Virus record (IMG/VR): IMGVR_UViG_3300034684_000039 | Coordinates: 1 to 43,140 of that record | Length of the DNA: 43,140 bases | Direction: 5' to 3' (one strand) | DNA from: a virus | Part shown: positions 1,508 through 40,872 of the stretch, one piece after another | Position numbering within the stretch: the first letter of the stretch is position 1 | Layout: every line of letters starts with the position of its first letter | The notes under the pieces: generated by a model | What the model was told of the DNA's origin: nothing | The model's input: only the letters and a program-made list of their open reading frames with translations | The model's database searches: none | Program-made: the position numbers and the translations under genes

Positions 1508-1525
1508 CACTTAACCCTCCAATTC

Positions 1526-2226: not shown

Positions 2227-2626
2227 ATGGTATTTCTTCTTCGTTTGTTTCTACTTCTGTATACCAGTTTTCTTCTTCTTTTTTAGTATCGTTCCATTCC
2301 AGTTTGTCTAGTTGATTTACTAATACTTCTGTAACATAAACTTTTTTCCCATCTTTATCGTCATAGCTTCTTGTTTGAATTTTGCCATCTACAGCTACTA
2401 GGTTACCCTTTTTGCAATAAGTTGCAACAAACTCTGCAATTTTATTAAAGCATACACAATTTATAAAATCTGCTGTAGGTTCGCCTTTTTGTTGTGCTTG
2501 TGCTTTTGATTCTTTCGACATTCCTCTATCAACCGCTATTGTAAAGCTTGATACTTTTACTCCTGATGGTGTTACTCTAAGTTCTGCGTCTTTTGTAAGC
2601 CTGCCTATTAATATTGCCTTATTCAT
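2222..2626 (-). CDS. ssb: Single-stranded DNA-binding protein
   Basis: A 134-aa OB-fold SSB. It opens MNKAILIGRLTKDAELRVT and continues with SSFTIAVDR, FINCVCFNKIAEFVATYCKK and VAVDGKIQTRSYDDKDGKK, all hallmarks of bacterial and phage SSB. The C-terminus is acidic and ends EEEIPF, the tail that docks partner proteins in this family. It coats single-stranded DNA during replication and ERF-mediated recombination. It lies in the early operon downstream of the DnaD/DnaC-type genes. The ATG has GGGGAG upstream and overlaps the preceding gene's end. Length is slightly short but typical for phage SSBs. Confidence 0.93.
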   Translation of the reverse strand: MNKAILIGRLTKDAELRVTPSGVKVSSFTIAVDRGMSKESKAQAQQKGEPTADFINCVCFNKIAEFVATYCKKGNLVAVDGKIQTRSYDDKDGKKVYVTEVLVNQLDKLEWNDTKKEEENWYTEVETNEEEIPF

Positions 2627-2900
2627 TTTTGTTTACTCCCCTTTCTAATTTTTCAATACAATCTATATAATGCGTACCAGCTTTTGCACACATATAATAA
2701 TCTTCAAGTGAATTGTTTGTGTTCTCATTGAATACTACGATTACATAAACATCATCTATACTTTGTTCTGCTTCGCTTATTTCTGCTATATAGAACGCTT
2801 GTTCGTCAAAGTCATACAATAAATAAACTGGCTTTTTGTAATCTCTTGAGAAATTGAAACCAAAGTTTACAGCTGGTATATAATTACTAAATTCAACCAT
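2619..2900 (-). CDS. Hypothetical 93-aa early protein
   Basis: Not recognised. An acidic protein starting MVEFSNYIPAVNFGFNFSRD, with a compact alpha/beta pattern (YLLYDFDEQAFYIAEI, DVYVIVVFNEN). The ATG at 2900 is chosen over an upstream in-frame start because the upstream stretch overlaps the AbrB-like gene. It overlaps the start of ssb by 8 bases, so it is co-translated with it. A replication or recombination accessory role is possible from position only. Confidence 0.6.
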   Translation of the reverse strand: MVEFSNYIPAVNFGFNFSRDYKKPVYLLYDFDEQAFYIAEISEAEQSIDDVYVIVVFNENTNNSLEDYYMCAKAGTHYIDCIEKLERGVNKNE

Positions 2901-2902
2901 TT

Positions 2903-3154
2903 TTACCACTTTCCTTTCAGCAATTTTTCTTTGTAGCATTCCAAATGATACCAATTACCATTCAAATCTGATTCTCCATTGCCATATATTATGTCACCGC
3001 ATATCTTGCAATGCCTTACTTTGTTTTTCTTTTCTATTACCAGCCTGTCATCTTCAGCATACAGTATTACTTCTTCCCCTATGTCTATGCCTAGTTTGTC
3101 TAGCATTCTTTTAGGTATCAATACTTGCCCACTGTCTGTCATTTTCTTTAACAT
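2903..3154 (-). CDS. AbrB-like transcription regulator fused to a zinc knuckle
   Basis: Residues 1-44 form an AbrB/SpoVT-type swapped-hairpin DNA-binding domain (TDSGQVLIPKRMLDKLGIDI, then GEEVILYAEDDRLVIEKK). It is followed by a LIM-like metal site C49-x2-C52 and H70-x2-C73. At 83 aa it is about the length of an AbrB protein, but with a zinc element in place of the usual oligomerisation tail. It is likely a transition-state-type repressor or modulator of phage or host promoters. A second protein of the same architecture but different cysteine pattern is encoded at 8.3-8.6 kb. The ribosome site is weak. Confidence 0.8.
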   Translation of the reverse strand: MLKKMTDSGQVLIPKRMLDKLGIDIGEEVILYAEDDRLVIEKKNKVRHCKICGDIIYGNGESDLNGNWYHLECYKEKLLKGKW

Positions 3155-3158
3155 AGTA

Positions 3159-3572
3159 TCACGCCTTTGAAATTATTTTTTCCCCTGTGATAAAGTCCGC
3201 TTTTAGAAAACACTCTTTATATCCAGACTCTGATTCAAACACATAGTAATTCTTTTGTTTTTGTATGCAAGTACCGCTGAATGAAAGCGAGTCTGCCTTT
3301 TTATGACCATCTGGCTCAAATATTTTATACTTGTTGCCTATTCTGATACTGACATTATTGCTGTGTTCTGCTTTGTCGTGTTTGCCAATCTTTTTCATCT
3401 GTGTTAATTCTGATATTCTTTGTTCTAGAAATTTGCTATCCACTTTTATAATCTTACACATTTGCGTGGTAGTCAAGTAATATATATTGTCGATTATGAA
3501 ATCATCATATTTCCCTTTTAATAACATCTGATTTGCTAATGCATTTTTATTAGGATTCTTTCTCCTAGTCAT
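3159..3572 (-). CDS. Hypothetical 137-aa basic protein, possible helix-turn-helix
   Basis: Not identified. The N-terminus is strongly basic (MTRRKNPNKNALANQ), followed by IIDNIYYLTTTQMCKIIKVD-x-KFLEQRISELTQM, which has the spacing of a small helix-turn-helix. The C-terminal half is beta-rich (IRIGNKYKIFEP, YYVFESESGYKECFLKADF). GGGGGAAATGGA precedes the ATG. A DNA-binding role in early gene control is plausible but unproven. Confidence 0.6.
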   Translation of the reverse strand: MTRRKNPNKNALANQMLLKGKYDDFIIDNIYYLTTTQMCKIIKVDSKFLEQRISELTQMKKIGKHDKAEHSNNVSIRIGNKYKIFEPDGHKKADSLSFSGTCIQKQKNYYVFESESGYKECFLKADFITGEKIISKA

Positions 3573-22876: not shown

Positions 22877-23278
22877 ATGACAATATCTGAATTTCTGGTA
22901 ACCATTGAAAGCAATATGCCACACGATATACCAGATAGCACAATAATAAACTGGATAAACATATTAGAGGATAGTGTATATTCAAGTATAGTAGGTACTT
23001 TAAATACAGAGCCTTTCATATCTGATGATGGGCTTTCCGAAAGAGAAAGATTTAAACCTGAATTTAAAACAATAGATAAAGCAAATGAGCAAACACTATC
23101 TTTATTAGATTTTGGCTTTAGATGGCTATCTCTATATGAATACTTTGTGTATGCACAAATATGTATATTAAAAGAAGAATTTGGGAAAGCAAACAATTAT
23201 ATAGCTTTATACAATTCATTGCTAGACGATTTTCTTGCATTCTATTTCTCGAGAGCATCTTACGACAAGGCTTGGTGA
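22877..23278 (+). CDS. Putative head-tail connector/adaptor protein
   Basis: A 133-aa mostly helical protein: MTISEFLVTIESNMPHDIPD, STIINWINILEDSVYSSIVG, LLDFGFRWLSLYEYFVYAQI. The N-terminal pattern (short helix, PD-x-x-I-x-x-W-I-x-x-L-E-x-x-x-Y) recalls the small helical adaptor (gp6-like) proteins below the portal. The gene directly upstream of the hub candidate supports that. Family assignment is by eye only. Confidence 0.55.
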   Translation: MTISEFLVTIESNMPHDIPDSTIINWINILEDSVYSSIVGTLNTEPFISDDGLSERERFKPEFKTIDKANEQTLSLLDFGFRWLSLYEYFVYAQICILKEEFGKANNYIALYNSLLDDFLAFYFSRASYDKAW

Positions 23279-23282
23279 TAAT

Positions 23283-24560
23283 ATGAGATTGCCTTATTTA
23301 AACAATATAAACAATTTAAAGATAAGTCCATTGCTTTTCAGCGGGATAAACAAAAAAGAAATAATAAACGACAATGAAATATCAGATGGTCATAACCTAT
23401 CAACAGAAGAAATACCTGCTATATGTCCTAGAGAACCTATGGAATCGATAAAAAGCTTAACAAAACCTAATTACTTGGGAGTTATTAATAACAAGCTAGT
23501 GTATGTAGATGGCACTAGCTTTTATTATGACAATCAATTAAAAGGTACTGTATCAGATACTAAAAAGTCCATAGTTGATTTCAATGGATATATAGTAATA
23601 TTTCCTGACAAGAAGTATTATGATTATATAAACAATGAATTTAATAGCTTTACTTGTCCTGATATAGATTATGCTGTGGTACATTACAATAGAATATTTG
23701 GAATAAAGGGAAGCGAAATAAGAGCAAGTAAACTTGGAGATTTTAAGGCTTGGGAACAATTCGAAGGCACACAAATGGATAGCTGGGGAACAGATGTTTA
23801 CTCTGTGGGAGATTTTACAGGTACTGTATCTTATCAAGACCATATAGTATTTTATAAAGAAAACAGTATGTACGAGTTATATGGATACACACCTAGTCAA
23901 TTTAAGGTATTAGAAGTAGCGAAGATAGGCTGTATAGACAATAAAAGTATAACAGAAACACAAGGCATATTATTCTTTGCGTCAGAAACAGGAATATTCG
24001 TTTATACAGGCGGATTTCCTACAGATATATCAACAAACCTAAACATAAAGAATTTAAACAAAGCATCATTGATAGGAAATGGAAACAAGGTATATATATC
24101 TATTGATGGCACTACTTATATATATGACACAAACCTAAAGACATTCTTGCCTTACGCAGATTTAGATGTTTTATATTTTGCAAAAGATGATATGTATGTA
24201 TACGCACTAACAACAGATGGTGAAATATATCGTCTAAATAGTGGAGATGAAATTGTAGAATGGAGTTTAACAACTAAACAATTTGATGATGGAGTATTTA
24301 ATAAAAAGAGCATAAAAGCTATAAGGTTAAAAGCTATAATGGAAACAGGATCTGAAATATCTGTATATGTAAGCAGAGATAATAGACCATTTATTCAAGT
24401 AGGGCAAACAATAAAATTTCAGAATGAATATATAAAAACAAAAGAAGTTAAAATAACAATACCATTAAAAAGGGCGAGTTATTATCAAATTAAAATAACA
24501 GGCAAAGGCAAGTCTATAATATATGGTGAAAAAGAGTTTGTAGTAGGAAGTGATAAATAA
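23283..24560 (+). CDS. Beta-propeller tail hub candidate (P22 gp10-like)
   Basis: A 425-aa beta-rich protein with successive strand-turn units (NNKLVYVDGTSFYYDNQLKG, YDYINNEFNSFTCPDIDYAV, GNKVYISIDGTTYIYDTNLK, KDDMYVYALTTDGEIYRLNS), as in propeller proteins. Size and position after the adaptor match the packaged-DNA stabilisation/tail hub protein of P22-type podoviruses, which plugs the portal and carries the fibres. The C-terminal 100 residues may be a separate fibre-binding domain. The start at 23283 follows GGTGATAAT; an in-frame start upstream would overlap the adaptor gene by 44 bases. The homology is an inference. Confidence 0.6.
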   Translation: MRLPYLNNINNLKISPLLFSGINKKEIINDNEISDGHNLSTEEIPAICPREPMESIKSLTKPNYLGVINNKLVYVDGTSFYYDNQLKGTVSDTKKSIVDFNGYIVIFPDKKYYDYINNEFNSFTCPDIDYAVVHYNRIFGIKGSEIRASKLGDFKAWEQFEGTQMDSWGTDVYSVGDFTGTVSYQDHIVFYKENSMYELYGYTPSQFKVLEVAKIGCIDNKSITETQGILFFASETGIFVYTGGFPTDISTNLNIKNLNKASLIGNGNKVYISIDGTTYIYDTNLKTFLPYADLDVLYFAKDDMYVYALTTDGEIYRLNSGDEIVEWSLTTKQFDDGVFNKKSIKAIRLKAIMETGSEISVYVSRDNRPFIQVGQTIKFQNEYIKTKEVKITIPLKRASYYQIKITGKGKSIIYGEKEFVVGSDK

Positions 24561-26506: not shown

Positions 26507-26746
26507 GGGTCAACTACCCAACGACTAAAGTCGTGGGCTTGATAGCCCTATGTTGACCAGGCTAAGGTTTGAAACAAAACCTACGTTATCTATGTCATGA
26601 CACCCTAGGATGCCCTCCTAGTTCTAGGCTCTGTCGTATAGCATTAAACAGGTGTAGTGGGTTAAGCCAGTGTGTTATACGTGTAAACATAGATAACATT
26701 GCCGAGGGAGATGTTACCTGCGTAAGCAGAGAAAGGAGAAATTCCT
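26507..26746 (+). ncRNA. HEARO/omega RNA of IscB
   Basis: A 240-base leader in front of iscB with dense complementarity. GGTCAAC (26508-26514) pairs with GTTGACC (26552-26558), enclosing an ACGAC/GTCGT hairpin. AGGTTT (26565-26570) pairs with AAACCT (26577-26582). GTTATCTATG (26585-26594) pairs with CATAGATAAC (26688-26697), enclosing CGTATA/TATACG (26635-26640, 26676-26681). AACAT/ATGTT follows, then CTGC-GTAA-GCAG (26718-26729) with a GNRA loop. This is the arrangement of HEARO RNAs, known as the guide RNA scaffold of IscB. The guide should be the bases just 5' of the scaffold, 26491-26506 (AAATAGTATCCAATAG), which are fibre-gene sequence. Confidence 0.85.
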
Positions 26747-28027
26747 ATGGTATTTGTTTTAGATGCAAATAGAAAACCATTATCACCTTGTCATGAAGCA
26801 GTTGCAAGAAAATTGCTTAAACAAGGTAAGGCTGCAATATTTAGAAGATACCCATTTACAATAATTCTTAAAAAATCAGTAGAAGACACTAAAAACAAGC
26901 AAGAATATAGATTAAAAATTGATTATGGTAGTAAGCATACAGGATTAGCTATACTACAAAAAAACAATGTAATATGGTTAGCTCAAATAGACCACAGAAC
27001 AGATATTAAAAAGAAACTTGATGATAGACGTATGTTTAGACGCAACAGAAGAAATAGAAGAACAAGATATAGAAAGCCAAGATTTTTAAATAGAAAAAGA
27101 AAAGAAGGATGGATACCACCTTCACTTGAAAGTAGAGTTAATAATATAAAAACATGGGTTAATAAGTTACAAAAATTAATTCCATTAACTCATATATCTT
27201 ATGAAAATGTTAAGTTTGATACTCAATTAATGCAAAATCATGAAATAAGTGGTATTGAGTATCAACAAGGTACACTTCAAGGATATGAAGTTAGAGAATA
27301 TTTACTTGAAAAGTTTGGTAGAAAATGTTGCTATTGTGGAAAAGAAAATGTTCCATTAGAAATAGAACATATAATACCAAAATCAAGGGGTGGAACAAAT
27401 AGAGTTGATAATCTTTGTTTATCTTGTAGAGAATGTAATCAAAGGAAAGGAAACATGACTGCTGAAGAATTTGGTTATCCTGATATACAAAAACAAGTTA
27501 AACAAACATTAAAGGATACTTCTGTAGTTAATTCTACAAGATGGAAAGTTTATGATGTACTTTGTAATAGTGGTTTAGAAGTTGAATGTGGTACAGGTGC
27601 TTTGACTAAAATGAATAGAATCAAATTAGGATTGCCAAAAGAACATTACTTTGATGCTTGTTGTGTAGGACAAAGTACACCTGATAAATTATATTTTAAG
27701 ACAAAAGATGTTTTGTATATAAAAGCAAAAGGTAGAGGGAGTCATTGTAGAACAAATTTAGATAAATACGGCTTTCCGAGAGGATATTTAGCAAGACAAA
27801 AATATTTCTTTGGTTTTCAAACAGGAGATATGGTTAAAGCTGAAATACCAAAAGGAAAATATAAAGGCATTTGGTACGGAGAAGTTGCATGTAGAAAATC
27901 AGGTAGTTTTGATATTAAAGACAAGGAAGGTCAAAGAGTTGTACAAGGTGTAAATCATAAATATTTTTCAGTTGTACAACACTTTGATGGGTATAGTTAT
28001 AGAAAGGAGGCAGCAATTCTTACGTAG
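26747..28027 (+). CDS. iscB: IscB RNA-guided nuclease
   Basis: A complete 426-aa IscB. The N-terminal PLMP/RRXRR segment is MVFVLDANRKPLSPCHEAVA. RuvC-I is LKIDYGSKHTG with D59, followed by an Arg-rich bridge helix (94-118). RuvC-II is ISYENV with E153. The HNH domain runs from CCYCG (194-198) to CRECNQRKG, with H208 and N222. RuvC-III is EHYFDACCVG with D303. The C-terminal part (FPRGYLARQKYFFGFQTGDM onward) is the target-interaction region. All catalytic residues expected for cutting both strands are present. IscB uses omega RNA to find and cut matching DNA. Its ribosome site lies in a small AGGA/TCCT hairpin at the RNA 3' end. Confidence 0.95.
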   Translation: MVFVLDANRKPLSPCHEAVARKLLKQGKAAIFRRYPFTIILKKSVEDTKNKQEYRLKIDYGSKHTGLAILQKNNVIWLAQIDHRTDIKKKLDDRRMFRRNRRNRRTRYRKPRFLNRKRKEGWIPPSLESRVNNIKTWVNKLQKLIPLTHISYENVKFDTQLMQNHEISGIEYQQGTLQGYEVREYLLEKFGRKCCYCGKENVPLEIEHIIPKSRGGTNRVDNLCLSCRECNQRKGNMTAEEFGYPDIQKQVKQTLKDTSVVNSTRWKVYDVLCNSGLEVECGTGALTKMNRIKLGLPKEHYFDACCVGQSTPDKLYFKTKDVLYIKAKGRGSHCRTNLDKYGFPRGYLARQKYFFGFQTGDMVKAEIPKGKYKGIWYGEVACRKSGSFDIKDKEGQRVVQGVNHKYFSVVQHFDGYSYRKEAAILT

Positions 28028-28099: not shown

Positions 28100-28252
28100 T
28101 TGAAATATGTAATTGAAATGGAAGAATATGTTTTAAACAATTTAAAATTGTTTTTAGAAAGGACAACTATGACAGGTAAAGAAGTTGGTGCATATGCAGA
28201 AATACTAAAGTGTATATCAGAAGCTAAGCCAAAAGAGGTTGGTGATGAATAA
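28100..28252 (+). CDS. Small phage protein whose ribosome site was displaced by the IscB element, 50 aa
   Basis: The frame reads MKYVIEMEEYVLNNLKLFLE, then RTTMTGKEVGAYAEILKCIS and EAKPKEVGDE, a convincing short phage protein. Its stop overlaps the ATG of the next gene (TAATG). No ATG stands at the natural beginning; TTG at 28100 (or GTG at 28091) is the likely start. With the IscB element removed, GGTG would stand 6 bases before the TTG; as it is, no ribosome site remains. Translation may now depend on weak initiation or on an internal ATG at 28169 behind AAAGGA. Function unknown. Confidence 0.6.
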   Translation: MKYVIEMEEYVLNNLKLFLERTTMTGKEVGAYAEILKCISEAKPKEVGDE

Positions 28253-29691
28253 TGGCTTTATCATATTTTGACCAACAATATTTAAACCCAGAAGAACAAA
28301 AACAAATGCTTGAAATTCAGAATAACTGGGCGAACGCATCTCCACAAGAAAGAGAGAGTTATCACACATTAGCTGAAAGTATGAGAGCAAAGTATGGATA
28401 TAGTGGTGGTGTATCAGGCAATGAATATATACAAATAGGTACTGTTCAACAACCTACTATAAATCCATACGAAAGTCAATGGAACGATACACTTCAAAAC
28501 TTATACAAAGATATAAGCACAGCACAATATCAACCTAGTCCATATGAAGCATTAATAGCACAATCTATATCACAAGCTGCTAATAGAAAATTTGAATACG
28601 ACCCAAATACAGACCCTGCTTATCAAGCATACAGACAAAGGCTTATAAGTGCAGGTGAAAGTGCATATCAAGACAATTTAGCAGGCTTATCGGCTGCTAC
28701 AGGTGGCAGACCTAATACTTGGGCTGCTAGTGTGGCGTCACAAGCTAGAAATCAGTATATGCTACAAGCCGAAACAGCAATGCTTGATTTTGAAGATAGA
28801 GCATACAGCAGATACCAAGCCGAAACAGATAATTTGTATAAATTTATATCTGTACTAGACAGTATGGATACGAAATACTACAACAGATGGAGAGATAGCA
28901 TAAACGATAAAAAAGAGCTGTTTAATATGGTAATGCAATTAGAAGATGCAGACTTTCAAAAGTATCAATATCAAGTTGAGCAGTCTTGGAAACAGTTTGA
29001 CGCAGAAACAGCAAACTTCCAACTTGCACTAGACAAAAAGAAGATGGATATACAAAACGCATTAGATAGAGTAGAGATGCTTGGATATGTAGATAATAAA
29101 GCGGCTGCTGTTTTAGGAGTACCTACAGGAACTCTATCAAAGACAGCAAGAGAAAGAGCTGAAGCTATGGAAGATTACATCAAAAAGCAATCAATAGATT
29201 TAGAAACATATAAAAAGCAAAAAGCGATAGACTACGAGTATGATATGAAACTCATCAATGCAAAAGTATCGTCAGGTAGCAGTAGCGGGAGTGGTAGTAG
29301 TAGTTCAAAACCACTCACAACAACTGAAATAAAAGCAATAGGCAATGAAACATTAAACTTTGACAAACTAGTTAAATCAAAAGACTATCAATCTCTTAAA
29401 CACGACGCTTACAAGATGGAATCCATAAACGATTTTATAGACAGCGTAATAAAGAAAGGGCAATATGGCTCTTATGGTGCTAGAAGCTTAGAAATAGCAG
29501 AAGCTATATTAAATAATGTAATGCAACACGAAGAATATCAAAGAGTATTAAATGCTTATCAAGGTGCAGTAGAAGCAGCTCAAAAAGGCTCTAAAGAATA
29601 TATGCTTAAAGACTATGAAAGTAAAAGTGTAAAGACAAGCAACACAAATGCTCAATCTAAGAAAGGCAAGATAGGATATAGTCCTAACTAA
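28252..29691 (+). CDS. Putative internal virion (ejection) protein, 479 aa
   Basis: A helical, Gln/Ala-rich protein: ALIAQSISQAANRKFEYDPN, AYRQRLISAGESAYQDNLAG, ASVASQARNQYMLQAETAML, with a long coiled-coil middle (DADFQKYQYQVEQSWKQFDA). A Ser/Gly linker (SSGSSSGSGSSSS, about 342-355) separates a C-terminal helical domain. Proteins with these features directly before a giant C-terminal virion protein in podophages are usually injected with the DNA. There is no enzyme motif. The assignment rests on composition and position. Confidence 0.6.
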   Translation: MALSYFDQQYLNPEEQKQMLEIQNNWANASPQERESYHTLAESMRAKYGYSGGVSGNEYIQIGTVQQPTINPYESQWNDTLQNLYKDISTAQYQPSPYEALIAQSISQAANRKFEYDPNTDPAYQAYRQRLISAGESAYQDNLAGLSAATGGRPNTWAASVASQARNQYMLQAETAMLDFEDRAYSRYQAETDNLYKFISVLDSMDTKYYNRWRDSINDKKELFNMVMQLEDADFQKYQYQVEQSWKQFDAETANFQLALDKKKMDIQNALDRVEMLGYVDNKAAAVLGVPTGTLSKTARERAEAMEDYIKKQSIDLETYKKQKAIDYEYDMKLINAKVSSGSSSGSGSSSSKPLTTTEIKAIGNETLNFDKLVKSKDYQSLKHDAYKMESINDFIDSVIKKGQYGSYGARSLEIAEAILNNVMQHEEYQRVLNAYQGAVEAAQKGSKEYMLKDYESKSVKTSNTNAQSKKGKIGYSPN

Positions 29692-29703: not shown

Positions 29704-32700
29704 ATGATTGATTTAAACAAATATAAAATAACTACTGGCTCATTGTCGCCTGAAGTGAAATCTTTAATAGATAGAAATAAGCAATTTTCTGAAAGACTTA
29801 AAGACAAAGATGAGGAATACAGGAAAAGACAAGAAGAAAAAAGAATACAAGAATTAAAACTTAAGCAAGAAGCATTGCAAAGATATAATGGCGACAAGTC
29901 ATCAAATGGAGTATTCGATAAAATAGACAGGATAGAAAACACTACAAACCCTGTATTAACAAGTAAAACAAATGATAGAGCAACACAAAAATACGACAGC
30001 AAAAGATATGCAAAGAGCTATGCTTATCAAAAGCAAAACTTTGATTATGCAAATGCACTATCCAATGATGTAGGCACTATATATGCCTTTAAGAGAAGCA
30101 TGGGGAAATCTGATGAAGAAATAAAACAAGAGCTTGTACCAAAAGCAAATGATTATGAAGTGGAACAAAAGTTGGCGGAAATTGAAAACAAGCTAAAACA
30201 AGGCAATGAAGGTGTATTGTACAACATACAAGAAGGCTACCTTGAAAAAGAAGTGATGGACTTATTATCAAAAGAAGCTATAAAAAGAATGAATGGATTG
30301 CCTAACAAACTAGACGAAGTAAATAAATTCATAGAAGAACACCCAGAAATGTCGCTGAGTGAAGAAAACGACAACGCATTATATAAAGGTATGAGGTTCA
30401 CAGGCGAATTTGTAAGTCAAACCAAAAACTCAATGGCTTATGCCTCTAAAGATTTAGACTCTTGGGCAACCGCAGCTGCTATAATAGTTGGTGGAATAGC
30501 TGTAGGTGCTGTAACAGGCGGTACTGCTTTGCCCGCTTATGTAGGTGTAACAGCTTCTGCACTAGCTACATTATCGCCTTTCGCAGCTATGGGATTTGGA
30601 ATGAGTTATGGTGCAGCTAAAAAGATGGCAGAGGTTGAAGGTGGGCTTGCATACAACGAATATATACAACAAGGAATACACCCTGACATAGCAAAAGATA
30701 TGGCACAGACAGTAGGTGCTATAAATGGCGTATTAGAAATGGTAGAGATGGGAACTCTCATAACTTGGCTACCCGGTGCTAGTGTAGCTAAAGATTTAGC
30801 TATGAAGAAAGTCAATTCAGAGATGACTAAGAAAATATTAAAGACAGCCGCAGCATATGGAATAAACTTGTCAAGCAATATGCTTCAAGAAGCTGCACAA
30901 GAAAGCACAACTATGTTAGGATTGACGCTTTCAGATTATATGCAAAACGCACCCAACCCTAACACGCTAGATGGTTTAAAAGAATTAAAGAAAACAATGA
31001 CATCAGACGAGTATTTAAGAAGAGTAGGGGATAGTGCTATAGGTGCTGCCGAGAGTATGTGGCTGCTACCTATAGGAAGTGGACTTATAAAAACAGGAAC
31101 CAATCAAATACTAGAAGGTAAGGCTAAGATAAAGCAATCAAAAGGCTTTTACACAGCAGAAGATGTAGAAACAGACGCCTATGTTCAAGAGCAGAAAAAG
31201 CTATTGCTTGATGATGGTGGAGTAATAGATACATTAAGTGAAGCTGTAATAAAAGAATCAAACGCAACAGGTCTTAAATACTTGACAGCTTTAGAACCTA
31301 TGGTAGAAGCATTACTTGCCAGAGAAGATTTAACCAATGGCGAAAAGCAGCTATTGTCTAAAAAATACGAACAGCTTAAATCAGCTATAGAAACAGCTAA
31401 AGAAAAAGTAGTTTTAGACAATCCAGATATAATATTCGAGCCTACGTCTAAAAGCGAAATAGCAGGGAAAGTCTTAAATAGAGAAGTGCCTTTCATAACA
31501 CTAGACAAAGACATATATATAGACTATTACAAAGACGCAGAAGAAAAAGGCATATTGGATAAAGTAATAGATATGACAAACAAAGGCAAGACATATTCGG
31601 AAATAGCAGATGAAGTTGCTAAAATGCTTCCTAGAGGAAAGAAAAATGTAGTAGACGCATCTGTATATATAAGTGCTATAGAAGCTGTGAACAGGGAAAT
31701 AAACGCACAAAAGCAATATAACTTAATTGAAAACCTAGATAAAATGACACAACTGATAAATGCTAAAACAATAGAAGAAGAAACAATAGAGCCACCTACA
31801 CTAGAACAGAACACACAAGAAGAACAAACAACAACAAAAGAACAACCTATGCAAGAAGAACAAACAACAACAGAAGAACTTGCTACAGAAACCACACTCG
31901 AAGAAGAAACTCAACCTACAGTAGAAGCTCAACCTGAAGAAGAAATAACAGCAGAAGAACAAAAGACACTTGAAAAAGTTACAGAGCCAGTTGAAACAAA
32001 AGATGGCAAATACTCTCCATCAGACATAGTAAAAGTGCCTGTGGAAGATATAAGAATAGACCAACAAAGATTTCAGTTTAGAGAAAGCGGGACCACTAAT
32101 AAGTTCAGCGACACAGACTGGAAAGATGAGCTATCTGGTGTATTACTATTATGGGAAGATGACAAAGATGGCACTTTGTATGTAGTAAATGGACATCATA
32201 GATTATTATTGGCAAAGGAAAACAATGTAGACTATATAAACGCAAGAATACTAAAAGATGTTACAGACAAAGAAGCAAGAGCTATGGGAGCTTTGATAAA
32301 CATAGCAGAGGATAACGCAACAGCAGTTGATGTAGCTAAATACATCAATGAAACAGGAAGCACTAGAGAAGAACTGATAAAACTAGGGATATCTCCTAGA
32401 AGTAAAATTCTAAGAGATGGTGAAGCATTATCTAAGCTGTCAAAACCACTATTTAGAAAAGTGGCGACTGGTGCTATGAGCATAGAAAATGCTGTTATTA
32501 TAGGAAACGAGTTGCCTAACAACGAAGAAGCACAAGCATATATTGCTAAAAAGATAAACGAGCTAGAAGCAAAAGATAAAATAATAACTCCATCAATACT
32601 TGAATCTTTAATCAGGATAGAACAGTCAAGCGGGTTTATTGAAGGTGAACAAATAAACCTATTAGGAGAAATAGATAAGAAATCATATGCTTACGAGAAA

Positions 32701-35700
32701 TCCACAATAGTTGATTATGTAAAGAAACAGCTAAAGAATAAAAAGAAACTATTAAAGAATGTAAGTAAAGAAACAAACGCACAAATATTAGAAAGTCTTG
32801 GCAACAAAGTCAACATAGACGAAAACATAAAGCAAATGGAAAGCACAGACCTTGCATTGTATCTATTAGATAAAACAGCGTACTATAAATCAAGTATAAG
32901 CGACATGTTCAATGAATACGCAAAGGAACTTGCAATTACAGACAAACCATTGGCTGTAAAAAATAAAGCCTTGAACGACTTTATAGCGAAGATAGAGAAT
33001 GGAGAACTGTTAAACGAAGTATTCGGAAACAATGAAGTTGTGGAAGAACTAGAAAATCAAGCAAGTTTATTGGAAGCACAAACAGAATTGCTAGGGGAAA
33101 AGATGGTAGAAGTAGTAGAACAACCATCAGTGGAAGTTGTAATAAACCCTAAAGCGTCACAGCTTCTTGTGGAAGAAATGCAACCAGTATTAGATGCTAT
33201 GTCTAAAAACCCTATATTTAATAACTTGATTGTAGAGTTTAATGGCAAGGAAGAAAAAATAGTAAAACTAACTAAGAAGGAGTTGGAAAAGTATGGATAC
33301 GACAATGCAGAAGCAGGAGAATATAGAATCAGTGGATACCTTGAAAGACCTAGAAGAAGAAGGAATGGAGATAACAGCAATAACAATAAATCAAAACTAG
33401 TCCTTACTAATTCAGCAAACAAAGGAACTTTACTGCACGAAGTGATTCACTATGTAGAGCAAATAATACCAGAGATAAACCCAGACCTTGCAAACTTGAT
33501 CGATGATTGGGCGAATGATGTTTACGAACAAGCAAAAGAACAAGGCATAGAAGTATGGGATAGAAAAGAATTACTAGCAAATGCACTTACTTTAGGTGAA
33601 TTTGGATATGCAAGTGATGATATAGCAAAAGCAAATTTAGTAGAAGTAGACCCTGATATAATAGCAGACTTTAAGACCATAGTAAGTCCTGAATTTATAG
33701 AAGCTGTAAAAGGTAAGAAAAAGTCAAAGAAGAACAAACAAATAAAACTTAAATATAAAGGCTATGCTGAAAGACAGTTAAAAGAAAGCACTAAAAAAGA
33801 GGATATAGTAGAAGCTAAAACAGATAGACTGTCTGAAATATCGAATAAACTTGAGAATTCAATCAATGGTGCCGCCTATTATTCAGCAGACCAAATAAAA
33901 AGCATAATGGCCATAAAAACGGAAGAAGGAATGTATGACTATATCATATTTGAAAATGGAGAAGATATAGCAGATGATACAGTAACTTTAGACAAACTAT
34001 TGGATATCATACAAAAGAACGAGCTTATATACGACAAAAAAGAAATACACGAAGAACTACAGCAATATGATAGAACAGTCGTAGAAAACATATTCAACGG
34101 GATTGATGTATTTGACTTTGGAAAAGTTTTAGACGCAGCTAAATCAGGCAATATAAACGCAAGTGATTATGATTTAATATTAAGCAAGTATGTAGACAGA
34201 AACCAAGCAAACCTATTGATAGACGAAATAAGAAAAGCGTCTAAAACAGGTTTTAATTTGCCTAATGATAAAGTATCTATGACACAATTCTTAAACAGGT
34301 TTTTTGATGATGGAACAGACGATACAATTAAAATAGTCTTAACAGAAAACAACAAATATGCTATTGCAAAGCTTAACTTTGAAAATCAAGATACAATTCT
34401 TGATATGAAAATATTCGGAGAGTATGACACATTAAAGAAAGCAATAGACGCATATTTAAACACAGAGCTTAAAGTAGACGCAACTAAGGAAGAATTCTAC
34501 AAAGCATTTAAAGAAGATATGATTTATCTACGTTCTAAAGATGGGGAACATTCAAAATATGTCATATCAAACAGATACAAAGAAGATGTGGTATTAAACG
34601 AGCTAGACAACTACACTTTAGCTTATGCATACAAATACAACAATATACACAAAAACTCTAAACTATCTACATTGACTGAATATACAAAAGAAAAGACTGG
34701 TGGAGAGCCTGTATATATTGACATAAGCAAAACAATAAAATACGAAGATGCAATACAAAAGTACCCTGACGACCCATTATTCACACAACATTTATTACAA
34801 GATGGGTACACAGCAATAACAACAAAAGACACTATAATACCATTGGCACCTATGTTTGTTAAGCCTTTGCACACTACAACGCTATATACCTTCAGCGAAG
34901 TAGGACAAGACAAGATGATAATAACAAAGAATGGCTCATTGCTATTGAATGGATTTAATAGGACTTTCTTGTACAAAGACAAGATATACAAATACAATGT
35001 AAAAGTAAAAGACAGCTATTCTTTGAAAGACTTAAACAGAGTGGATACTCCAATATATATAGAAAATGTAGACAAATTCGACAAAGATGTGGCAAAAGCT
35101 ATACTGGAAGCAGAAAAAACAATGCACAGCACAGTATATCTAGATGGGAAGAAATATACAAACAGCAAAGCACAAATGCCAAAATACGCAGGAGAAATAA
35201 TAGACCCTGACGCTGTCACGATATCATTTACAACAACCACAGATTTAATGAACAAACTTATTGAATTTGATGGCATACCTGTACCGTCTATAGCAATAGC
35301 AAAGGCACCGCCTAAGTCAGCTGACATGGGCAATAACATAGTGTTCTTGTTTAAAGCTGAAACAATAGACCCTGCTGTAAATAAAGGAAACACAATATAT
35401 TCGACTGAAATGTTCACAAGGGAATTTCCAGTAAGAACACCTAATGGAGTAAATGATGTAATCAAAGAAGTAAAAGATTATATAATAAGTAGAACAGACC
35501 ATACAGTAATCGCAAGAAAGATGTTAAACTATTACAACTTTGATGAAACATACGACAGTGTACAATTCTTTACAACAGTATATTCAAATGACCCAATAGT
35601 TAAATATGTATACGCTGTGGATAATGGAATATACAAATACGACAAAGCTATACTTCCTGCAGATATAAATTCTCAATCAAGAGAAGCAATGGCAAAAGCA

Positions 35701-38700
35701 CTGCATAAATATGTATCTGAAATAGATCCTAGAGATGTGGGACAATGGCTCTTGGACTTAGTGTATAAGAAAGACACGAGAATGTATACAAACAAGGCTA
35801 CAAACTTTGTAGACCCAACAGTGCAATCATACTTTGCAGACTTAAAAGCAGACAACCTAGCAAGAATGTTTGCAAACGCACCTAAGCCTGACATAATGAA
35901 TGGAACAATAGACCTTGCTATGCTAAAGGCTTTTTATGCGAAGAAATTTGAAAGTTTTGCAGAAGCACTAGACCACAGGGATATGCTTGTGGCCAGAGGT
36001 GGAGAAACAAATATGCTAGGGTATACGCAAAAAGCATATGAGTTGATAGACAAAATAATAAAAGATAACAAAGAAAATATAGAAAACTATATATCTTCTG
36101 AAAAACAAGAGTCGACAAAAGATATACACGACCAATTAAAAGACCCTGAAAAGTTTATAAAGGAAAATTTCCTAAGCCTTATAGGGCTATATTTCCAAAA
36201 TAAAAAGACCAATAAATTCGATAAATTCGGATACTGGTATGACGACCACGCAGTACCTAAGCAAGACCCTCGCAGAGCTTTTCATATAATGGGGCTAAAA
36301 ATAACAGAAGAACACCTAAACGAATTAGAAACGATACTGAATGATGTTATCAACGAAACAAAAACAAACCAATTTGATGCTGTAGTAGATAGAGTAATAC
36401 CATACAGTGAAATTGCAGCCGCTATAGTGCCTAAGAATATAAATCCAGAAGTTGTAAAATTCCTAAAATCTAGTGGAGTAAAAGCAATAGTGCCTTATGG
36501 CGAGAACTCTTGGAACGGACTAGCAGAAGCTGTTATGAAAGACAACGAACTCTTGTACCAGCTTAAAAAGAATACATCAGATAAGAGAAGGAAAGACTAC
36601 GACAATAAACTTGTAAAAGATACAACAGGAGAACCTTTGACATACAAAGGCAAGACTTTTGACGGGGAAGAAACAGAAGGGAACTATTATGTAATAAGCG
36701 AAAACCCATATATCGTAAAAGACGAAAAAGCGTTCAATGACTTAACCTATAAAGATTTAAGCGATGGAGGATATGACGCTGCAATACTTGTAGACGTAGA
36801 TGGAAACCCTATAAAAGTAAGACCTATAACACAACAACAACTTATACTTGCAGAACCTATGGAAGCTATGGATTTTAATGAATTACCTGAATATTATCAC
36901 ATAAAAGAAACAAGAGATTATAAAGAGAGAAGTTGGGGGAAAACAGTAAGGGATATGAATATCAACGACCCTTGGATAGTAGATATACTTACTGATACTC
37001 AATTTTGGTATGATGTAAAACACAACACAGACACATTTCTCTTAGCAGGTAAGATACTTCAAGAAAAGGGTATAGACTATGTAGAAGCTGTACTTGATTC
37101 AGGAATAGAAGTAACACCTGAAATAGAAGCAGCAGGTTTGATACTGATTGAATATTATAGACAAAATGGGAATAAGTCAGAATTTCTAAACGCTATGGAG
37201 AGAGTCGCTATTAACGCTACTACTGCAGGACAGATAATTCAAGTGCTGTCTCAATTTGGCAAAATGTCTGCAGAAGGCAAGATAAACTATGTTAAGAGAG
37301 AAGTCGAAAAACTTACAACCCCTAAGGATAAAAGAATTGTAGAAGAAAAGACAAAAGAAATAAAAGAAAAGACAGTAAATATTTTAAAAGAAACTCTAGA
37401 TGATAAAAGACTGGGCGACTTCTTAGAAGAAAACAAAGAAGAAATGGCAAAAGTAGCAGACTATGTAGAACAAATTTCTATGACGCCAGAAGAACAAATA
37501 GAAGCGGAGAAACCAACAGTAACTAAAAAAGAAACAGATACTATAGTTGACGAAGCTGTCAAAAAGGTTAAGCAAGAGAGAGCAACAAAAGGGCAGTCAG
37601 AAGGCGTTCAACAGACAATGAATATACCTAGAGATAAAGACTTTTTAAGCAAGAACAAAGACAAGATTGTAGAGATAGTCAGAAATCATTACACCAATCC
37701 AGACAACAAGAGCTTAAAGACAAAGTTAAAGAAAATAGGACTTACAGATTCAGAAGCTGCTATTGTAGTAAGATACACAAAAGAATATATTAGAAGTAGC
37801 TCTGAACAAAAACTGCTAAGTGAAATAAACAATACTGGCGTTCAAGATACTTGGCTTAGCAAATTAATATTCCAAAATGTGCTAGATGGCGACTTTGGAC
37901 AAAGTTTAAAAGCGTTAATAGCAAAGAAAGAAAGAGTGCCTTATTTATCTCAGGACCTTATAGAACATATCTATAAGATGTCAGATATAATAGACAACAT
38001 GCCTGATGGCAAAGACAAAGACAGAGAAATTGCTAAACTTATCAGAGATATAAACGAATATTTACCAGTATCAAACGCAAGGAAAATATCTACATTGCAC
38101 ATAATGGGTATGTTATTAAACATTAAATCTGCACTTAGAAACATATTGAGCAATAGAGGATTTAGAAATGTAGACACCTTTGCTGTACAACTGTTCGGGA
38201 CACCTATAGATAAAATAATAAGTATGAAGTCAAAGAGAAGAACAGTGCTATTTAGACCTATAGCATCATATAACAATCAAAGAAAATACTATAAGACAGA
38301 AATGCCTAACGCAGTATACGAACAAAGACAAGGTATAGATTTTAGCACTATTGATGATAAATTCTCAAGTGGACTAGATATAGGTGATTTATCAAGAACA
38401 TCTATAAGAAGAACATTCCCTAGAAATTCATTACTAGGAAAGGCTGAAACAGCTATGAATGTTTTAATGAGAGCGCCAGATAGAGCGTCTTGGGCTGCAT
38501 CATATTTCGACTCTTTAGATATGCAGATGGAATTGAAAGAAAAAGGGTACAATAAAGATATAACAGAAGAAGAAATGTCAGAAATAGCTAATGCAATAGG
38601 GTTATACAGAACATTCAATGATGATACAAAACTATCCATTATGTTTAGAGAAATGAAAAGAACATTAAATGTAATCGGATTCGGGAAAAGAGAATTTGGT

Positions 38701-39882
38701 ATTGGAAATATCATTACAACTTTCCCAAAAACACCTGCTAATCTTATTATGAGAGGGCTAGATTATAGTCCTATAGGATTGGTTATGACTACGTTTAAAC
38801 TATTGCACGATACATCAGACAATGTATATCTAAGACAAAAACTTGCTGTTGAAGGTTATGCAAGAGCAATAGCTGGTACTGGTCTAACAGGAATAGGAGT
38901 TTTGCTATACAATATGGGCATCATCACATCAGGCTCTCCTGAAGATGAAAGCAAATTGAGAAAGTTTAAACAGTCTATGGGATTAAGAAACTACTCAATA
39001 AACATAAGTGCTATACTAAGGCATTTACAAGGGCAAGAAAATGCAGGAGATTTAAGAAAAGGTGACAAACTATTCTCTTATGACTGGTTTTTACCTTTGT
39101 CATTCCCATTATCTATTGGTGCTGACATAGCAAGTGGAGAGTCTAGTGCAATATCCGTAGCAGATAATTTATTGAAATCTTTACAAGCAGGACTTAATTT
39201 ATACACAGACCAACCATTATTTACAGGGCTTGAAAGATTATTTGGTAGTGAAGATTTAGGAAGCGGTGTTACACAAACACTCAAAAGTGTACCATCTAGT
39301 TTTGTTCCAAGTATAGTATCTCAACTAGCACAATTTACAGATGGAATAAACACAGACCCATACACAGGCTACTCCATACCAGAACAAACAGTCAATCTTA
39401 TCAAAAATAGGCTGCCAGTGCTAAGAGGGACACTACCACAAAGAGTATCTCCATTAGGAGATGGATTGGAATACTATACAGATGACGACACATTCTACAC
39501 TAAATTCTTGAAAGCTTTCTTATCTCCGGGGATAGTAACAGAATACAATCCTAGTGATGAAGCACAGTTTATAATGGATTTAGTCGAGTCTACTGGAAAT
39601 GAAGAATTAATACCACCTAAACCACAAAAACAATACACTTTAGAACTTGATAATGGAGAAAAAGTGATAGTAAAACCTACTCCTGAAGAATGGGAAGAAT
39701 GGCAAAGAAGATTTGGCGAAAACATCAAGAAAGACATAAAATATATTATGAGAAACTATTCAGGTAGGCTTACGAAAGAAGAACTTTCAGACGAAATAAA
39801 CAGAGCTATAAGTGAAAACAAAAAAGAATTTAAGGAATATTTGTTGCAACAGCAAAATAAAAAAGGGTCTAGCAATCGCTAG
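29704..39882 (+). CDS. Giant polyvalent virion/ejection protein, 3392 aa
   Basis: A single uninterrupted frame of 10.2 kb. It starts with charged coiled coil (20-65), followed by a hydrophobic Gly/Ala-rich segment (253-305, ATAAAIIVGGIAVGAVTGG) that could enter a membrane, then an acidic Thr/Gln linker (690-752). A ParB/DdrB-like domain follows (about 770-870, with NGHHRLLLA at 829-837), and a zinc metallopeptidase motif HEVIH (H1245, E1246, H1249) with a later Glu near 1289. A large-polyvalent-protein segment comes next (about 1850-1915, IPVPSIAIAKAPPKSADMGN). A degenerate ADP-ribosyltransferase-like region is near 2310-2375, and the C-terminal polyvalent domain is near 2790-3100 (TTFPKTPANLIMRGLDYSPI). 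Such proteins are thought to be packaged and injected to act early in the host. Domain limits are by eye. Confidence 0.8.
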   Translation: MIDLNKYKITTGSLSPEVKSLIDRNKQFSERLKDKDEEYRKRQEEKRIQELKLKQEALQRYNGDKSSNGVFDKIDRIENTTNPVLTSKTNDRATQKYDSKRYAKSYAYQKQNFDYANALSNDVGTIYAFKRSMGKSDEEIKQELVPKANDYEVEQKLAEIENKLKQGNEGVLYNIQEGYLEKEVMDLLSKEAIKRMNGLPNKLDEVNKFIEEHPEMSLSEENDNALYKGMRFTGEFVSQTKNSMAYASKDLDSWATAAAIIVGGIAVGAVTGGTALPAYVGVTASALATLSPFAAMGFGMSYGAAKKMAEVEGGLAYNEYIQQGIHPDIAKDMAQTVGAINGVLEMVEMGTLITWLPGASVAKDLAMKKVNSEMTKKILKTAAAYGINLSSNMLQEAAQESTTMLGLTLSDYMQNAPNPNTLDGLKELKKTMTSDEYLRRVGDSAIGAAESMWLLPIGSGLIKTGTNQILEGKAKIKQSKGFYTAEDVETDAYVQEQKKLLLDDGGVIDTLSEAVIKESNATGLKYLTALEPMVEALLAREDLTNGEKQLLSKKYEQLKSAIETAKEKVVLDNPDIIFEPTSKSEIAGKVLNREVPFITLDKDIYIDYYKDAEEKGILDKVIDMTNKGKTYSEIADEVAKMLPRGKKNVVDASVYISAIEAVNREINAQKQYNLIENLDKMTQLINAKTIEEETIEPPTLEQNTQEEQTTTKEQPMQEEQTTTEELATETTLEEETQPTVEAQPEEEITAEEQKTLEKVTEPVETKDGKYSPSDIVKVPVEDIRIDQQRFQFRESGTTNKFSDTDWKDELSGVLLLWEDDKDGTLYVVNGHHRLLLAKENNVDYINARILKDVTDKEARAMGALINIAEDNATAVDVAKYINETGSTREELIKLGISPRSKILRDGEALSKLSKPLFRKVATGAMSIENAVIIGNELPNNEEAQAYIAKKINELEAKDKIITPSILESLIRIEQSSGFIEGEQINLLGEIDKKSYAYEKSTIVDYVKKQLKNKKKLLKNVSKETNAQILESLGNKVNIDENIKQMESTDLALYLLDKTAYYKSSISDMFNEYAKELAITDKPLAVKNKALNDFIAKIENGELLNEVFGNNEVVEELENQASLLEAQTELLGEKMVEVVEQPSVEVVINPKASQLLVEEMQPVLDAMSKNPIFNNLIVEFNGKEEKIVKLTKKELEKYGYDNAEAGEYRISGYLERPRRRRNGDNSNNNKSKLVLTNSANKGTLLHEVIHYVEQIIPEINPDLANLIDDWANDVYEQAKEQGIEVWDRKELLANALTLGEFGYASDDIAKANLVEVDPDIIADFKTIVSPEFIEAVKGKKKSKKNKQIKLKYKGYAERQLKESTKKEDIVEAKTDRLSEISNKLENSINGAAYYSADQIKSIMAIKTEEGMYDYIIFENGEDIADDTVTLDKLLDIIQKNELIYDKKEIHEELQQYDRTVVENIFNGIDVFDFGKVLDAAKSGNINASDYDLILSKYVDRNQANLLIDEIRKASKTGFNLPNDKVSMTQFLNRFFDDGTDDTIKIVLTENNKYAIAKLNFENQDTILDMKIFGEYDTLKKAIDAYLNTELKVDATKEEFYKAFKEDMIYLRSKDGEHSKYVISNRYKEDVVLNELDNYTLAYAYKYNNIHKNSKLSTLTEYTKEKTGGEPVYIDISKTIKYEDAIQKYPDDPLFTQHLLQDGYTAITTKDTIIPLAPMFVKPLHTTTLYTFSEVGQDKMIITKNGSLLLNGFNRTFLYKDKIYKYNVKVKDSYSLKDLNRVDTPIYIENVDKFDKDVAKAILEAEKTMHSTVYLDGKKYTNSKAQMPKYAGEIIDPDAVTISFTTTTDLMNKLIEFDGIPVPSIAIAKAPPKSADMGNNIVFLFKAETIDPAVNKGNTIYSTEMFTREFPVRTPNGVNDVIKEVKDYIISRTDHTVIARKMLNYYNFDETYDSVQFFTTVYSNDPIVKYVYAVDNGIYKYDKAILPADINSQSREAMAKALHKYVSEIDPRDVGQWLLDLVYKKDTRMYTNKATNFVDPTVQSYFADLKADNLARMFANAPKPDIMNGTIDLAMLKAFYAKKFESFAEALDHRDMLVARGGETNMLGYTQKAYELIDKIIKDNKENIENYISSEKQESTKDIHDQLKDPEKFIKENFLSLIGLYFQNKKTNKFDKFGYWYDDHAVPKQDPRRAFHIMGLKITEEHLNELETILNDVINETKTNQFDAVVDRVIPYSEIAAAIVPKNINPEVVKFLKSSGVKAIVPYGENSWNGLAEAVMKDNELLYQLKKNTSDKRRKDYDNKLVKDTTGEPLTYKGKTFDGEETEGNYYVISENPYIVKDEKAFNDLTYKDLSDGGYDAAILVDVDGNPIKVRPITQQQLILAEPMEAMDFNELPEYYHIKETRDYKERSWGKTVRDMNINDPWIVDILTDTQFWYDVKHNTDTFLLAGKILQEKGIDYVEAVLDSGIEVTPEIEAAGLILIEYYRQNGNKSEFLNAMERVAINATTAGQIIQVLSQFGKMSAEGKINYVKREVEKLTTPKDKRIVEEKTKEIKEKTVNILKETLDDKRLGDFLEENKEEMAKVADYVEQISMTPEEQIEAEKPTVTKKETDTIVDEAVKKVKQERATKGQSEGVQQTMNIPRDKDFLSKNKDKIVEIVRNHYTNPDNKSLKTKLKKIGLTDSEAAIVVRYTKEYIRSSSEQKLLSEINNTGVQDTWLSKLIFQNVLDGDFGQSLKALIAKKERVPYLSQDLIEHIYKMSDIIDNMPDGKDKDREIAKLIRDINEYLPVSNARKISTLHIMGMLLNIKSALRNILSNRGFRNVDTFAVQLFGTPIDKIISMKSKRRTVLFRPIASYNNQRKYYKTEMPNAVYEQRQGIDFSTIDDKFSSGLDIGDLSRTSIRRTFPRNSLLGKAETAMNVLMRAPDRASWAASYFDSLDMQMELKEKGYNKDITEEEMSEIANAIGLYRTFNDDTKLSIMFREMKRTLNVIGFGKREFGIGNIITTFPKTPANLIMRGLDYSPIGLVMTTFKLLHDTSDNVYLRQKLAVEGYARAIAGTGLTGIGVLLYNMGIITSGSPEDESKLRKFKQSMGLRNYSINISAILRHLQGQENAGDLRKGDKLFSYDWFLPLSFPLSIGADIASGESSAISVADNLLKSLQAGLNLYTDQPLFTGLERLFGSEDLGSGVTQTLKSVPSSFVPSIVSQLAQFTDGINTDPYTGYSIPEQTVNLIKNRLPVLRGTLPQRVSPLGDGLEYYTDDDTFYTKFLKAFLSPGIVTEYNPSDEAQFIMDLVESTGNEELIPPKPQKQYTLELDNGEKVIVKPTPEEWEEWQRRFGENIKKDIKYIMRNYSGRLTKEELSDEINRAISENKKEFKEYLLQQQNKKGSSNR

Positions 39883-39905: not shown

Positions 39906-40214
39906 ATGGAAGAACTTATAAGTGTAGCGAGTTTAGTTGGCATTCTATCAGGCATTGTATTTTCATATATAGGCTACCAACGTGGCATTAAAAAAGATGT
40001 AGATGCTAATGGAGTTAGAAAAGGCTCAATTTACACAGACATAGAATATATCAAAAGAAAGATTGATGATGTAGCAGAAGGGCAAAAAGACACCAATAAA
40101 GTCATAAGCAGTCTAATGGAAAGGATAATAAGAGTTGAAGAAATGTCAAAATCTGCACACAAAAGAATAGACGACATAGAGTCTGATTGTAGAGATTGTA
40201 AAAGGGAAAGGTGA
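39906..40214 (+). CDS. Membrane-anchored coiled-coil lysis-cassette protein, 102 aa
   Basis: An N-terminal transmembrane segment (ISVASLVGILSGIVFSYIGY) is followed by a basic stop and a long coiled coil (TDIEYIKRKIDDVAEGQKDT, NKVISSLMERIIRVEEMSKS), ending in CRDCKRER. The arrangement recalls XhlA/hemolysin-like proteins encoded next to holin and lysin genes, which help lysin release. A strong AAGGAGG site is 5 bases before the ATG. Confidence 0.65.
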   Translation: MEELISVASLVGILSGIVFSYIGYQRGIKKDVDANGVRKGSIYTDIEYIKRKIDDVAEGQKDTNKVISSLMERIIRVEEMSKSAHKRIDDIESDCRDCKRER

Positions 40215-40218
40215 TAAA

Positions 40219-40872
40219 ATGGAAATAATCAAAAAGTTAGTAAGTGAAACTATGTACGATATTAAATGTCCTTACCCAATGAAACCTGAGTTTATTGTAG
40301 TTCATAATACAGCTAATGATTCAACTGCAATGAATGAAATAAACTATATGATTACAAACGCACATAAAACATCATTTCATTATGCTATTGACGATAAAAA
40401 CATAATACAAGGTATACCTGACAATAGAAATGCTTTTCATGCAGGAGATGGAGTTAATGGAATTGGTAATAGAAAAGGCTTATCCATTGAAATATGCTAT
40501 TCTAAATCAGGTGGAGAAAAATTTGATAAAGCAGAGCAATTAGCAGCAAAGTTTATAGCATATAAGTTAAAAGAATATGGCTGGGATATTAGTAAAGTAA
40601 AGAAACATCAAGATTTTAGTGGCAAATACTGCCCCCATAGAACGCTAGATTTAGGTTGGAATAGGTTTTTAAATATGGTAAGTAAAGAATATGAGTTGTT
40701 ATTAAAAGGAGGAATTGAAGTGGAAGATAAGAATACACCATCAACTTGGGCTAAAGAAGCGTGGGAATGGGCGAAGAAAGAAAAGATAACAGATGGTACT
40801 AGACCTAAAGAAAACATCACCAGAGAAGAAGTTATTGTAATGATTTATAGAGCATTAAAGGTGAAAAAATGA
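40219..40872 (+). CDS. Endolysin: N-acetylmuramoyl-L-alanine amidase with C-terminal wall-binding motif
   Basis: A 217-aa Amidase_2 protein. The sequence IVVHNTANDSTAMNEINYMI has zinc ligand H29; FHYAIDDKNIIQGIPDNRNA, HAGDG and GNRKGLSIEICYS follow; the second ligand group is KKHQDFSGKYCPH (H130 and C138). It cleaves the amide bond between MurNAc and the stem peptide. The C-terminal about 45 residues (TPSTWAKEAWEWAKKEKITD, GTRPKENITREEVIVMIYRA) form an SLH-like repeat expected to hold it on the cell wall. AGGTGATAAAATG start. Confidence 0.93.
   Translation: MEIIKKLVSETMYDIKCPYPMKPEFIVVHNTANDSTAMNEINYMITNAHKTSFHYAIDDKNIIQGIPDNRNAFHAGDGVNGIGNRKGLSIEICYSKSGGEKFDKAEQLAAKFIAYKLKEYGWDISKVKKHQDFSGKYCPHRTLDLGWNRFLNMVSKEYELLLKGGIEVEDKNTPSTWAKEAWEWAKKEKITDGTRPKENITREEVIVMIYRALKVKK

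Follow-up and report, generated by a model that had tools for sequence, protein, structure and literature searches.

A polyvalent giant of a phage genome carries an uncatalogued helical C-terminal module and a PBECR5-like domain without its near-invariant residues

A single gene takes up 10,179 bases (23.6%) of the 43,140-base window analysed here, the IMG/VR record IMGVR_UViG_3300034684_000039, and its 3,392-residue product (the giant) is, to judge from its sequence, a phage-type polyvalent protein that joins several domains of disparate biochemistry and is encoded among the virion genes of a portal-terminase phage. Computation established its open frame, domain homologies and gene order, the conservation of a C-terminal module (C-module) and the loss of six near-invariant residues from a PBECR5-like domain. 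We lean towards the reading that a short-tailed phage packages the giant in its virion as an ejection protein, built on a plan like that of the N4 vRNAP with a different cargo. Giant polyvalent proteins are already known as a kind; new are the uncatalogued C-module with variable cargo, an extended PBECR5 unit whose confident model matches nothing in the PDB, and a naturally occurring protein that lacks the near-invariant residues of PBECR5. Such giants account for a large share of many gut-phage genomes, and nearly all are named hypothetical.

Genome and gene context

The frame and its share of the genome, almost a quarter, had been given by a sequence-only reading and were reproduced exactly. 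A second contig from the same metagenome (3300034685_000023) is 100% identical, including over the giant ORF, which is therefore not an assembly accident. Because this contig joins the end of the window (43140) to its start (1), supplying 899 bases absent from the record (L003 20042-20940), the genome is read as about 44.04 kb and circular or circularly permuted, with the giant gene making up about 23% of it; the 899-base gap carries small early ORFs.

The virion locus runs in the order terminase small and large subunits, portal, capsid, fibre, internal-virion-protein-like gene, 479-aa gene, giant, 102-aa gene and amidase, and the replication genes (DnaC-like loader, initiator and Erf) occupy the opposite strand. 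Homologues of the internal-virion-protein-like gene lie upstream of the C-module gene in seven relatives, and homologues of the 479-aa protein do so in L146, L168, L182, L187 and L207; this recurrence, with the terminase, portal and capsid locus, supports a virion-gene neighbourhood. Family searches, PHROGs among them, identified no tail tube, sheath or baseplate gene in the window, and the phage is therefore read as short-tailed. The lysis pair consists of a 102-aa protein with an N-terminal hydrophobic segment (a possible holin) and an amidase endolysin. The position of the giant gene just before this pair would suit a late cytoplasmic effector that is made in the infected cell, stays unpackaged and acts in lysis timing, phage exclusion or host takeover; we consider this distinctly unlikely, given the conserved adjacency to upstream virion genes, the conservation of the hydrophobic N-terminal module and a plan that is that of known ejected giants. 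A Clostridia-like host is likely because terminase relatives were found in 11 of 291 Clostridia genomes (identity reaching 45% over part of the protein and 41% over most of its length) and the C-module in 13 of 391; three Clostridia genomes with terminase relatives lack the C-module.

Elsewhere in the window, a HEARO RNA (Rfam RF02033, 159.6 bits) is directly followed by a 426-aa IsrB-like RRXRR/HNH protein (26509-28027, + strand), the pair forming an RNA-guided nickase-type mobile element between two virion genes. An ORF at 857-1510 (- strand) holds near-identical 45-base tandem repeats at 1211-1437 and lies in the early-gene half, yet has one PHROG match annotated as tail fibre. A self-match revealed an exact 96-base repeat (685-780 and 2131-2226).

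Table 1. Positions in the window of the giant gene, its parts and neighbouring genes
Feature	Residues of the giant	Window position	Strand	Basis or remark
Internal-virion-protein-like gene		23235..24560	+	PHROG 511, E 1.3e-32; same virion locus as giant
479-aa protein, candidate partner ejection protein		28252..29691	+	directly upstream of giant gene
Giant polyvalent protein, 3392 aa		29704..39882	+	open frame, ATG start, no internal stop
N-terminal hydrophobic Gly/Ala-rich module	252-454	30457..31065	+	hydropathy and relatives' profiles
Acidic Glu/Thr-rich linker	691-765	31774..31998	+	25 E and 18 T of 75
ParB-like (DdrB-ParB type) domain	767-1076	32002..32931	+	PHROG 21
Zincin-like metallopeptidase core (predicted)	1218-1289	33355..33570	+	profile of 48 relatives' zincin regions
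No homologue found	1311-1835	33634..35208	+	Pfam, PHROGs, PDB, relatives, 391 Clostridia genomes
PBECR5-like domain with lost putative active-site residues	1836-2305	35209..36618	+	PF18814 and relatives' profiles
No homologue found; ART imaginable here by eye	2306-2468	36619..37107	+	ART-PolyVal profile, no match
Helical C-terminal module	2469-3376	37108..39831	+	profile A5, AlphaFold2
Lysis genes just downstream of giant		39906..40872	+	PHROG 1863, PHROG 3088

Relatives and size of the giant

The set of relatives was started from an alignment of two PBECR5 regions, that of the window and that of a distant phage (terminase 35% identical) whose 3,152-aa protein has a hydrophobic N-terminus, a VHEYTH motif, ART-PolyVal and PBECR5, and viral and genome contigs were then scanned. 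The scans gave about 95 PBECR5 ORFs. Such giants are common, and 3,392 aa is a middle size that is usual for the kind, since at least 66 relatives with PBECR5, the window's giant not counted, measure 2,456-5,393 aa. The named host genomes of the PBECR5 relatives are mostly Clostridia, with some Bacteroidales. Single-protein scans for close relatives returned the same phage only, and no full-length similarity to annotated phages or plasmids was found beyond the ParB region. The largest relative (L053, 1058-17236) has at least 5,393 residues in one open frame that runs off its contig, and a 3,902-aa relative (L028, 3842-15571) combines RadC, ART-PolyVal, HExxH and PBECR5 in one chain.

Domains of the N-terminal half

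The membrane-like segment of the sequence-only reading was recovered by hydropathy, with a peak at residues 253-278, and the surrounding hydrophobic module is conserved in relatives, whose N-terminal profiles match residues 283-454 (iE 2e-13) and 254-406 (iE 1e-12), with a further match from L205 (iE 1.3e-10). Beyond the acidic linker, PHROG 21 matched residues 767-1071 (E 1.7e-30) and thereby upheld the ParB/DdrB-like domain proposed before; its motif NGHHRLL at 829-835 leaves the conserved GHxRL pocket motif intact, including the arginine of GHxR, and a tblastn search with this region placed giant proteins of marine podoviruses closest (39% identity, E 3e-27).

A metallopeptidase had been predicted from the motif HEVIH, which stands at residues 1245-1249. 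The profile built from 48 relatives scored the HEVIH region of the giant at 19.1 bits, and none of 1,000 HEVIH-keeping shuffles exceeded 17.0, so that a predicted zincin is supported beyond the motif alone; the region has diverged too far for direct homology to show (whole-protein profile E about 1). E1289 (KELLAN) fits by eye the E-x-x-A pattern of the relatives and is a candidate for the Glu that supplies a third zinc ligand from the following helix. Among the relatives, 58 of 82 proteins have an HExxH within 1,200 residues upstream of PBECR5, a count that includes a few ParB-type HEGRH, against 1.6% expected in shuffles. The earlier prediction had been staked on conservation of H1245/E1246/H1249 in homologues and on predicted structure beyond helical bundles; an HExxH proved widespread in homologues, and structure prediction gave a mostly helical bundle only for the C-module, so that the refutation foreseen did not occur.

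The ParB-like, zincin and PBECR5-like domains in one chain bear out the assignment to the polyvalent class. PBECR5 was the single significant Pfam family in the giant; Pfam gave no LPD domain, LPD38 (PF18857) included, and searches of Pfam, PHROGs, NCBIfam and PDB sequences turned up no RNA polymerase family. A degenerate ADP-ribosyltransferase-like region had also been proposed and was not recovered: ART-PolyVal (PF18760) gave no Pfam match, the ART-PolyVal profile from five relatives reached 2.2 bits for its best domain (whole-sequence E about 1), and PBECR5, which that reading had not named, was identified instead. An ART that could be seen by eye at about 2306-2420 was dropped on the outcome of that profile, which had no match there. 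Residues 1311-1835 and 2306-2468 are the only parts with no credible homologue in anything searched, and they may be diverged or new. ThiI-like matches to residues 1734-1806, which came from three of the 391 Clostridia genomes searched (E 0.003-0.005 per genome), were judged to be chance. Of the two stretches originally left blank, 1390-1840 falls largely within 1311-1835 and is still unmatched, and 1990-2300 proved to be mostly the second half of the PBECR5-like domain.

A PBECR5-like domain without its near-invariant residues

The Pfam PBECR5 model (PF18814) matched residues 1844-2034 with 42.7 bits against a cut-off of 25, and the relatives' own PBECR5 profiles matched the giant with iE values of 2e-17 and 5e-14. 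The conserved unit of the relatives, at about 480-540 residues, is more than double the length of the Pfam model and has HN, PMPSIAI, NKVY and DAWTP in an N-terminal block, YFEAKP in a C-terminal block and a helical stretch between the two; across the 82 aligned domains the 239 positions of the Pfam model cover less than half of this unit.

Of the 82 aligned domains, 80 retain the full set of six near-invariant residues (His, Asn, Asp, Glu, Lys and Pro), and L114 lacks the His only. The giant has none of the six, showing F1842, T1843, E1902, D2225, V2227 and V2228 instead; F1842 stands for the conserved His of the proposed RNase site, a His in 80 of 82 domains. T1905 is kept and is a candidate for the conserved Thr/Ser of the proposed PBECR5 site. 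Twenty-one columns are common to at least 95% of the 82 domains, and the giant keeps 13 of them (P, P, S, I, A, G, Y and R included), the eight differences being the six named residues, one V-to-I exchange and one gap. Because the six residues, which are putatively catalytic, have been replaced, the domain is probably a dead enzyme or one of changed function. The countering of host defences proposed earlier for such proteins is putative for the giant, and the only effector-like domain identifiable in the middle of the protein is without its near-invariant polar residues; since it looks dead the effector story is weaker for this member. This natural loss provides a ready control for PBECR5 function.

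AlphaFold2 modelled an intact PBECR5 relative, with 80 sequences, as a 538-residue alpha/beta domain (pLDDT 92.7). The model had no match among solved structures in the PDB (best E 0.3), and among viral predicted structures it matched only other phage polyvalent, 'nuclease' and unnamed proteins. BECR domains, whose fold has been claimed for PBECR5, are described with a His in the N-terminal helix followed by 4-5 strands (PMC5512222). In the model strand 1 (21-27), which directly precedes helix 1, holds the conserved His (His25), and the published fold assignment, which this high-confidence model puts in question, therefore deserves a check. A reading of PBECR5 as a DarT/KptA-like ART was tried and set aside: its C-terminal motif looked DarT-like by eye, and profile comparison did no better than null ORFs (DarT ranked 149 of 506 for the joined core, in a comparison with one DarT and five ARTs). 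Because a single DarT sequence was used, the DarT-like reading is unsupported rather than refuted.

The C-terminal module and its variable partners

Profile A5, of which the giant is itself a row, matched the giant with 683 bits over residues 2668-3376, and additionally over 2469-2588 at 1e-8. In relatives the C-module measures about 700-900 residues; it occurs in at least 163 viral contigs (L120, L126 and L141-L218 among them) and is common to the giant, L020, L110, L195 and L214. No model of it exists in Pfam, PHROGs or NCBIfam, and its profile does not match the LPD38-bearing L027 or MW202692. AlphaFold2 with 67 sequences predicted a mostly helical structure (pLDDT 81.9); the best Foldseek match to a solved structure had an E of 1.1, and PDB sequence matches were to designed helical repeats and similar chains only.

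Proteins of the family range from 929 to 4,519 aa, and in 61 complete ORFs the C-module is preceded by 157 to 3,170 residues (median 934, with many at 430-600). Because the same module is common to proteins with such different lengths ahead of it, the family fits a fixed carrier with variable cargo; its shortest members look like the bare frame, to which the giant would add about 1,970 residues. The C-module marks one broad class of giants, allows carrier to be told from cargo and opens the delivery idea to testing in a laboratory phage.

The same size range bears on two other explanations. A tape-measure protein of a longer tail would account for the length of the giant, its helical C-terminal part and its hydrophobic segment; a spread of this width within one family would be unexpected for it, the ParB and zincin domains would be unneeded and the gene set is of the short-tailed type, and we regard this as very improbable. 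A mainly structural protein, forming an ejection channel or head scaffold, with the middle domains as decaying passengers that serve no present function, would agree with the mostly helical model, with the loss of six of six near-invariant PBECR5 residues and with relatives of about 930-1,200 aa, from which it follows that a C-module gene can do without cargo. Most relatives nevertheless keep cargo, and in the giant the ParB GHxRL and zincin HExxH motifs are intact, 2,000 residues have been kept open and the PF18814 match still exceeds its cut-off; we judge this explanation unlikely.

Proposed mode of action

The favoured reading of the giant as an ejection protein draws on the order of the virion locus, the upstream genes that recur in relatives, the C-module with its variable cargo, the conserved N-terminal module, the podovirus giants that are nearest by ParB, the zincin supported beyond its motif and the plan of the N4 vRNAP. 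The ejection role of the C-module rests on context, since no solved structure matches it. The packaging, ejection, self-cleavage, activities and order of events that we infer would be as follows. A carrier frame would consist of about 480 N-terminal residues, a membrane-seeking segment among them, and the helical C-module of about 900 residues, with a cargo of about 2,000 residues between them. The giant would be taken into the head during assembly, next to the 479-aa protein of the neighbouring gene; when the phage infects, it would pass through the tail, and its N-terminal hydrophobic segment may help it to cross or dock in the membrane. The cargo, a ParB-like nuclease/NTPase, the zincin and the PBECR5-like domain, would reach the cytoplasm early, where the zincin may split the chain into functional pieces, and the PBECR5-like domain would here probably be no enzyme but a relic that serves in binding or as a scaffold. 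Injection of polyvalent proteins and their processing by zincins into working units were proposed by Iyer et al. 2017 (PMC5512222).

A bolder and tentative extension, which we hold to be possible though rather doubtful, would make the C-module the carrier in a general platform for protein delivery by phages, with a fixed N- and C-terminal frame and a cargo of 0 to more than 2,500 residues drawn from a shared pool (ParB, zincin, ART, RadC and PBECR5), and PBECR5 a separate large alpha/beta fold, not a BECR RNase, that is catalytically dead in the giant and perhaps acts as a decoy or binding domain.

Comparison with known systems

The giant resembles the phage-type polyvalent proteins of Iyer et al. 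2017 (PMC5512222) in having ParB-like, zincin and PBECR domains in one chain with virion genes around it, and differs from them in a PBECR5-like domain without near-invariant residues, the lack of any Pfam LPD and an uncatalogued C-module. With the PBECR5-bearing gut-phage giants (L016-L114; L110 corresponds to PHROG 22978) it shares an upstream HExxH, an extended PBECR5 and a virion locus; in contrast, the six residues lost here persist in 80 of the 82 aligned domains, and many of those proteins have an ART-PolyVal before PBECR5, which the window's giant does not. The giants of the marine podoviruses P-SCSP1a (2,571 aa), Nohivirus S31C1 (1,484 aa) and Ruegeria phage 45A6 (3,912 aa) have ParB-like domains that are 27-39% identical, and no similarity was found outside this region. 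The Clostridium clostridioforme prophages phi1 and phi4 carry 8-kb ORFs that make up almost 20% of the genome (PMC11318856); compared by description, these are likewise large polyvalent-like ORFs at the 3' end of a Clostridia prophage, and they are described only by similarity to an LPD domain (PMC11318856).

The N4 vRNAP (gp50) is packaged and ejected, and its plan comprises N-terminal membrane helices (224-278), a long linker, the enzyme, an HExxH domain and a large helical C-terminal part (PMC12633501). The likeness of the giant to gp50 is in plan and not in sequence, no sequence similarity to PDB chains having been found, and the giant has ParB-like and PBECR5-like domains, whereas no RNA polymerase domain was found in it. 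Both proteins measure about 3,400-3,500 residues and have an N-terminal membrane segment near residue 250, a long linker and an HExxH (PMC12633501), and both end in a large helical C-terminal part that stands without structural relatives.
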